In this document: in pieces, positions 16,456-16,774 of the stretch
Position numbering within the stretch: position 1 is the first letter of the stretch
Layout: every line of letters starts with the position of its first letter
Assembly (NCBI RefSeq): GCF_900142535.1
Contig: NZ_FRBE01000004.1
Coordinates: 1-64,000 of the forward strand
Direction of reading: 5' to 3'
From: Fibrobacter sp. UWEL
GTDB lineage: Bacteria; Fibrobacterota; Fibrobacteria; Fibrobacterales; Fibrobacteraceae
Length of the DNA: 64,000 bases
Made by a program: the position numbers and the translations under genes
Notes under the pieces: generated by a model
What the model was told of the DNA's origin: nothing
Database searches by the model: none
What the model saw: the letters and a program-made list of their open reading frames with translations, nothing else

Positions 16456-16774
16456 GGGACTGTAGCTCAGTTGGTTAGAGCAGCGGACTCATTGTAATTG
16501 TGACACCAGTCCGAAAGGGCTGGTTGCAAACGGGAAGAATTCGGTGAACCCTGACGGGTGGAGACACTACAAGGCAACGCCGAGCCGAGCCAGAGGTACA
16601 CTTCTGGAAGGTGTAGAGACTAGCGGAGCAGTTTAGCCTGCTTAATGACCGCAATAAGTATCCCGCGCCTAAACTGATCCTTGTGGTTGGCATGGCGAAG
16701 ACATAGTCCACGGAGGTGCGTAAGCATCACAAACGTAAACCCGCGGGTCCTGGGTTCAAGTCCCAGCGGTCCCA
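16456..16774 (+). tRNA. tRNA with CAU anticodon (Met or Ile2), interrupted by a group I intron
   Basis: The 5' exon (16456-16492) has acceptor GGGACTG, a normal D arm (GCTC...GAGC) and the start of the anticodon arm GCGGA-CTCAT. The 3' exon (from about 16738) has AA, CCCGC, variable loop GGGTC, T arm CTGGG-TTCAAGT-CCCAG, acceptor CGGTCCC and discriminator A; CCA is not encoded. Acceptor and T stems pair fully. The anticodon stem has one A-C mismatch (31-39). The intron sits after the anticodon's third base. CAU alone cannot separate elongator Met from lysidine-modified Ile2. Confidence 0.85.
16493..16737 (+). ncRNA. group I intron in the tRNA anticodon loop
   Basis: About 245 nt, without an open frame for a homing endonuclease. 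The core boxes closely follow the Azoarcus tRNA-Ile(CAU) intron: GAATTCGGTGAACCC near 16538, AAGGCAACGCCGAGCC at 16571-16586, GGAAGGTGTAGAGACTA at 16606-16622 and GAAGACATAGTCC from 16697. The P7 strands GACTA and TAGTC pair. P2 is CCAGTCC-GAAA-GGGCTGG. An internal guide GTG at 16499-16501 pairs with exon CAT, giving the U-G pair at the 5' splice site. The 3' splice site is uncertain: the usual terminal G fits 16735, but a 7-nt anticodon loop needs 16737. Confidence 0.88.

Follow-up and report, generated by a model that had tools for sequence, protein, structure and literature searches.

This locus raises the question of how a genome can read AUA codons with a tRNA gene that is split beside its anticodon by an intron ending in an unusual base, and of where such a gene came from. 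The window, i.e. the whole stretch of 64,000 nucleotides analysed here (positions 1 to 64,000 of contig NZ_FRBE01000004.1 from Fibrobacter sp. UWEL), contains the gene on its forward strand. The 5′ exon (16456–16492) corresponded to bases 1–37 of the native tRNA and carried the anticodon CAT at 16490–16492; the 3′ exon (16738–16774) corresponded to bases 38–74, with A73 as the discriminator and no encoded CCA. When the native intronless tRNA-Ile2 of the same genus was aligned to the genome, the exons (37 + 37 nt) showed zero bases lost or gained. Because nothing was missing from either half, the intron was delimited as 16493–16737, i.e. 245 nt without an ORF of note, with boundaries that follow from the native and intronless alleles. 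It lies between U36 and A37, directly 3′ of the anticodon, as the earlier note had proposed in placing it after the third anticodon base. That note was also right that the intron is without a homing endonuclease, the gene for which cannot fit in 245 nt, and that the genome belongs to the Fibrobacter group, since MAGs of the same genus bear the title Fibrobacter.

The earlier reading of the gene as a CAU tRNA can be made more exact, as the exons match native Ile2. From the isotype inventory and the identity to the native gene, we assigned it to tRNA-Ile2: it has the CAU anticodon and an Ile-type body, is distinct from fMet and eMet, and resides in a genome that encodes TilS, by which its modification is predicted. 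The tRNA arms varied among copies with compensating changes, e.g. acceptor GGGACTG/CGGTCCC versus GGAGCCT/AGGCTCC. A wrong 3′ splice site, suspected from an A31–C39 mismatch, was dropped because the native intronless Ile2 genes of the genus share this mismatch. Default ARAGORN found no tRNA at 16456–16774 of the window, and the Rfam tRNA model scored below its gathering score at the gene, which routine annotation would therefore overlook; standard annotation (default ARAGORN, Rfam thresholds) would list the genome as having no tRNA-Ile2. With introns allowed, ARAGORN called a tRNA-Pyl(cta) with the junction shifted by one base, which was ruled out by the intronless alleles that fix the junction. 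Directly 3′ of the tRNA, a terminator-like inverted repeat (AAAAAGACAGG...CCTGTCTTTTT, 16779–16808, forward strand) was read from the sequence; a consensus terminator scan did not pick it up.

The structure of the intron was counted on 16 sequences, namely 12 Fibrobacter copies, one from a viral contig and three from Verrucomicrobia. The fold from P1 to P9.0, with a P3/P7 pseudoknot, comprised 63 pairs that were 95.6% paired across these sequences and showed two-sided changes in 25 of the 63, which upholds the earlier identification of a group I intron. None of 500 shuffles matched this result, and slid versions of the structure were 31–41% paired. In P1, the guide sequence GUGA (16500–16503) pairs with exon UCAU, and U36 forms a wobble with G16500 at the 5′ splice site; this U-G wobble was invariant (16/16). 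P3 (16531–16535 with 16661–16665) covaried at three of its five pairs (C-G, U-A, A-U), whereas P7 (16618–16622 with 16704–16708), which forms the pseudoknot with P3, was invariant, including the G16618–C16708 pair (alignment columns 142 and 233). By analogy with Tetrahymena G264–C311, we predict that this pair binds guanosine. The core helices were each 97–100% paired, with two-sided changes in P3, P6 and P8. The P5 hairpin, P6, P7.1, P8 and P9 covaried too, and the weakest helix was P2 (76% paired). The extra hairpin P7.1 (16623–16652) was also present in the viral-contig intron L223 and in the Verrucomicrobia introns, and was absent from the proteobacterial tRNA-Ile introns. P9.0 (16710–16736) is formed by ACG (16710–16712) and CGU (16734–16736), with one covarying pair (C-G / A-U). 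It was paired in every sequence, as ACG/CGU or, in Verrucomicrobia, as AAG/CUU, and the next base is the ω position.

The Azoarcus-like core named in the earlier note was recovered, and public genome contigs contained at least 120 stretches with its Azoarcus-type motifs. A group I model search, the check which that note had suggested, stayed below threshold: RF00028 reached 21.6 bits at a lenient cut-off, against a gathering score of 50 (attained by only 2 of 14 in control genomes). The comparative evidence was nevertheless strong. At the gathering score, Rfam returned zero matches for the intron-tRNA. Lenient LOOT and mascRNA-like Rfam matches overlapped the intron or the tRNA far below their gathering scores, and were treated as chance or overlap. 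On the evidence of the conserved fold, we classify 16493–16737 as a group I intron, IC3-like, at tRNA-Ile position 36/37.

How far the genome depends on this gene was judged from its tRNA inventory, compiled by family and pattern searches. The genome is 99.98% complete, in an assembly of 62 contigs. It contained 52 other tRNAs above the cut-off, and the case that the earlier note named as speaking against its reading, a second intact CAU tRNA in place of the split one, was not borne out, the other CAT tRNAs found being only initiator and elongator Met. These searches found neither a second Ile2 gene nor a UAU tRNA-Ile in the genome, leaving the intron-split gene as its sole candidate for Ile2. 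Given also that TilS is encoded, splicing should be essential. AUA is in use: a count over 12 genes of the window gave 30 AUA among 4628 codons. We conclude from sequence comparison that the intron-tRNA is real and probably essential, its splicing being what we infer. The sole Ile2 gene, together with the non-G intron end and the phage carriage described below, goes beyond the earlier note.

The intron core was narrowly distributed within the phylum: it was detected in 17 of 168 Fibrobacterota genomes and in one of 41 genera, that of the window, by an 18-nt core pattern with one mismatch allowed, which strongly diverged introns could escape. In the intron tree, the Fibrobacter group (92/88) was sister to L223 (99/100), and both joined the Verrucomicrobia introns at 100/100. 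All proteobacterial introns fell outside, the tRNA-Ile introns forming a clade of their own (100/100). Identity to the window intron was 80–89% within the genus, 70% for L223, about 60% for Verrucomicrobia and 47% for the proteobacterial introns. An origin shared specifically with the proteobacterial tRNA-Ile intron, as first supposed, is thus not supported by the tree, which puts L223 and then Verrucomicrobia nearest. The annotated phages and plasmids that were searched with the intron-tRNA gave zero matches. In three genomes that are 99% complete (G027, G049, G076), neither the native Ile2 pattern nor the intron was found. An intron-bearing tRNA-Ile(CAU) was also seen in a 94.5-kb viral contig (L232, 6250–6897; IMGVR_UViG_3300048670_001567), where it adjoins an ORF with a TilS-like PP-loop motif (SGGVDS).

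The origin of the gene is best approached through eight sister genomes, in which an intron-bearing Ile2 tRNA occurs together with prophage ends; these ends interrupt the host Ile2 gene at a core of 13 bp (AGAGCNNCGGACT) that they share. The native Ile2 halves lay about 51 kb (G021), 54 kb (G059) and 15.5 kb (G061) apart, with identical element ends, and the three prophages combined an integrase, structural genes and the intron-tRNA. The tyrosine integrase is located at the 5′ half of the split tRNA (L085:12373-13404, phrog_1), and the intron-bearing tRNA about 2.4 kb inside the other end of the element, in the opposite orientation. As the shared core is only 13 bp, neither junction rebuilds the tRNA. 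The G021 prophage carried terminase, portal, Mu-F-like head, baseplate and RecT-like genes, a gene set that marks the element as a tailed temperate phage. The same phage ends were found elsewhere, attR in G019, G029, G035 and G079 and attL in G019, G032 and G079, and the viral contig L237 contained the same phage head gene and the intron-tRNA. Neither a free attP nor a left phage end was found in the viral contigs searched. Native-pattern and tRNA searches found no intact Ile2 in G021, G059, G061, G032, G051 or G053. The intron copy is not always needed, since four relatives (G018, G022, G062, G063) kept both it and an intact native gene; in G018, G062 and G063, for which gene content was compared, it lay within a partial prophage segment. 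At the level of sequence, the arrangement is that of tRNA-dependent lysogeny, in which the phage supplies the isotype that it destroys and lysogeny would require the supplied tRNA.

Several further observations concern these elements. An ABC-transporter cluster adjoining the intron-tRNA (L083–L094) was 99–100% identical between prophages and partial prophage segments from several species, which suggests that it was transferred recently. Stretches of about 25–30 nt resembling the tRNA (GGTTAGAGCGTCGGACTCATAACCCGC) occurred outside tRNA genes in L271 (G035), L290 (G086) and L292 (G092); in G086, the right phage end lay at such a stretch, and these stretches may be secondary attachment sites. In G057, G077, G087 and G089 (L101, L102, L275–L278, L291, L298), contigs broke inside or beside the split tRNA-Ile2, with phage ends at the broken contigs of G077, G087 and G089, suggesting further prophages that are missing from the bins.

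In the window itself, no phage ends, tRNA halves, prophage remnant or att scar were found, and phage descent of its copy is for this reason argued from the relatives. In many genomes of the genus, the native tRNA-Ile2 follows, on the same strand, a gene that we guess from its sequence to be a glycosyltransferase (16870–18303 in the window, reverse strand). In the window genome, G047, G050, G051 and G053, the native-gene pattern was absent, and the intron-tRNA occupied the native place but was inverted, facing the glycosyltransferase-like gene. A conserved gene of the window (2179–3465, reverse strand) is located, in prophage-bearing relatives, immediately past the split native tRNA, on the side of its 3′ half. 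A prophage deletion that spared only the tRNA would explain the gene order at the window locus. Intronless tRNAs were observed in G039 (C104, L296), inverted at the native locus, and in G030 (L283); they could either have lost the intron or preserve the state that preceded its gain. A Cas cluster that runs from cas3 to cas2, together with a long CRISPR array, occupied 4384–16020, directly upstream of the tRNA, and from its genes looks like type I-C. In G051 and G053, other genes, putatively of restriction-modification systems, lay at the same place, and given these alternative contents the surroundings of tRNA-Ile2 appear to be a hotspot for defence genes.

The opposite direction of transfer must also be weighed, in which the intron entered the host tRNA-Ile2 on the chromosome and phages later took up the gene, which enabled them to integrate there. 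The lack of a phage remnant at the window locus and the intronless inverted copies at the locus in G039 would fit such a history, as would the intron tree, where the chromosomal copies (G000, G047, G050, G051, G053) branched beside, and not within, the phage copies, with moderate support only. However, the window tRNA is inverted relative to the native genes, a trait that it shares with the phage-borne tRNA of integrated prophages; moreover, among outgroup introns the closest is that of a viral contig, and the intron is limited to one genus of the phylum. We therefore regard a chromosomal origin as unlikely, and consider it quite probable that the window holds a functional, essential Ile2 gene with a self-splicing intron ending in A, most likely acquired via temperate phages, with the prophage since lost.

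Terminal ωG is usual for group I introns, although not strictly defining. In alignments with relatives, the last base of the window intron (A16737, forward strand) stands where this near-universal G is expected. All 18 Fibrobacterota copies, from 17 genomes, ended in CGTA|AACCCG, and the intron of viral contig L237 likewise ended in A, while ω was G in all aligned tRNA-Ile introns outside Fibrobacter (..CCGG|AATCC, ..CTTG|AATCC, ..CGTG|AACCC). Intronless tRNAs of G039 and G030, with exons identical to those of the prophage copies, read CTCATAACCCG at the junction, as do the native tRNAs. These intronless alleles and the P9.0 pairing define the junction, which fixes the 3′ boundary. One could instead place the splice site after the G three bases upstream (AAACG|TAAACCCG), which would restore a normal ωG at the cost of two extra bases (UA), a junction CUCAU-UAAACCCG and a 9-nt anticodon loop. 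A G does occupy that place in every Fibrobacter copy, and ω is G in all aligned relatives; but this G lies at the centre of P9.0, a helix with C-G / A-U covariation, and in L223 the same CGU is succeeded by a G that directly precedes AACCCG. Since native and intronless tRNAs do not contain the extra bases, and a 9-nt loop is, on established knowledge, probably a poor substrate for TilS, IleRS and the ribosome, we consider the upstream site very improbable. Even less credible is a dead intron in a pseudogene, with AUA read by a tRNA that the searches missed: weak Rfam scores, the terminal A and the 62-contig assembly would suit it, but the intron covaries, the tRNA arms carry compensating changes, TilS is kept, and four prophage-bearing and two other near-complete relatives are also without intact Ile2.

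With A16737 as the terminal base, the predicted G-site in P7 is nonetheless unchanged, a combination that predicts a weak second splicing step. In the second step of splicing, the terminal guanosine is, according to a published description, recognised by the G-site (PMC5192423). Loss of ωG is rare but has natural precedents. In vivo, the exons of the hexacoral mitochondrial intron ND5-717, which has no ωG, were still joined, although most of the precursor stayed unspliced and intron circles were not detected (PMC6545197). The title of Raghavan 2007, as cited in PMC11270868, describes a Coxiella 23S intron without ωG.

Under the preferred reading of a phage-derived, self-splicing gene, exogenous GTP bound at the P7 G-site would cut 3′ of U36, the base that the guide keeps in a U-G wobble. 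The 3′-OH of U36 released in this way would then attack after A16737, the terminal A taking the place of ωG, to give ...CUCAU-AACCCG... CCA would be added after splicing, and TilS would modify C34 to lysidine, so that the tRNA reads AUA. In the sister genomes, the tyrosine integrase presumably inserts the phage into the host tRNA-Ile2 at the 13-bp core, splitting the gene, and the phage would bring its own intron-bearing Ile2 tRNA as the replacement. In the window lineage, the prophage would have gone, and the only Ile2 gene left would be the inverted intron-tRNA in the native place. We further put forward, tentatively and at somewhat less than even confidence, that splicing of the ωA intron is obligatory for survival of the lysogen, that the intron may stop the phage tRNA from acting as an attachment site, and that the host is left permanently dependent on ωA splicing for an essential tRNA. 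This suggests a route by which a viral tRNA becomes the host's only copy of an essential gene.

Compared with known systems, the locus unites an intron class and a phage strategy that are each already known with a non-G intron end, which is rare, and it connects two fields that seldom meet, self-splicing tRNA introns and tRNA-dependent lysogeny. The Azoarcus-type intron of proteobacterial tRNA-Ile(CAU) (IC3) shares with it the tRNA, the site after U36, the core motifs, the P1 U-G pair, the small size and the absence of an endonuclease. The Fibrobacter intron differs in its terminal A instead of G, the extra P7.1, an identity of only ~47%, its separate clade (100/100) and its presence on prophages. 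The introns of Verrucomicrobia (L107, L131, L157) and of viral contig L223/L236 are closest in the tree and agree in insertion point, P7.1 and P9.0 register, but end in G and are 60–70% identical. The Coxiella 23S intron, as far as its title tells, and ND5-717 likewise have no canonical terminal G, and ND5-717 still ligates its exons in vivo. Those introns reside in rRNA and mitochondrial protein genes, whereas here a bacterial tRNA intron ends in A in 18 of 18 copies and its product should be essential. Such natural, probably essential ωA introns are small RNAs with many ωG relatives, which makes the second splicing step without ωG testable.

As reported by Guerrero-Bustamante and Hatfull in 2024 (PMC10865867), tRNA-dependent lysogeny involves, among others, Gordonia phages that use tRNA-Ile2-CAT, and the tRNA requirement was established by genetics; in the text of that paper, the word "intron" occurs only in a reference title. 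The Fibrobacter prophages resemble those phages in having a tyrosine integrase, an attB within a host tRNA, a short core that does not rebuild the gene and a phage tRNA of the same isotype. They differ in their Fibrobacterota host, in a requirement that is deduced and not genetic, and in the persistence of the tRNA without a prophage in the window genome. Above all, the phage tRNA is here split by a group I intron, which extends tRNA-dependent lysogeny to an intron-split tRNA.
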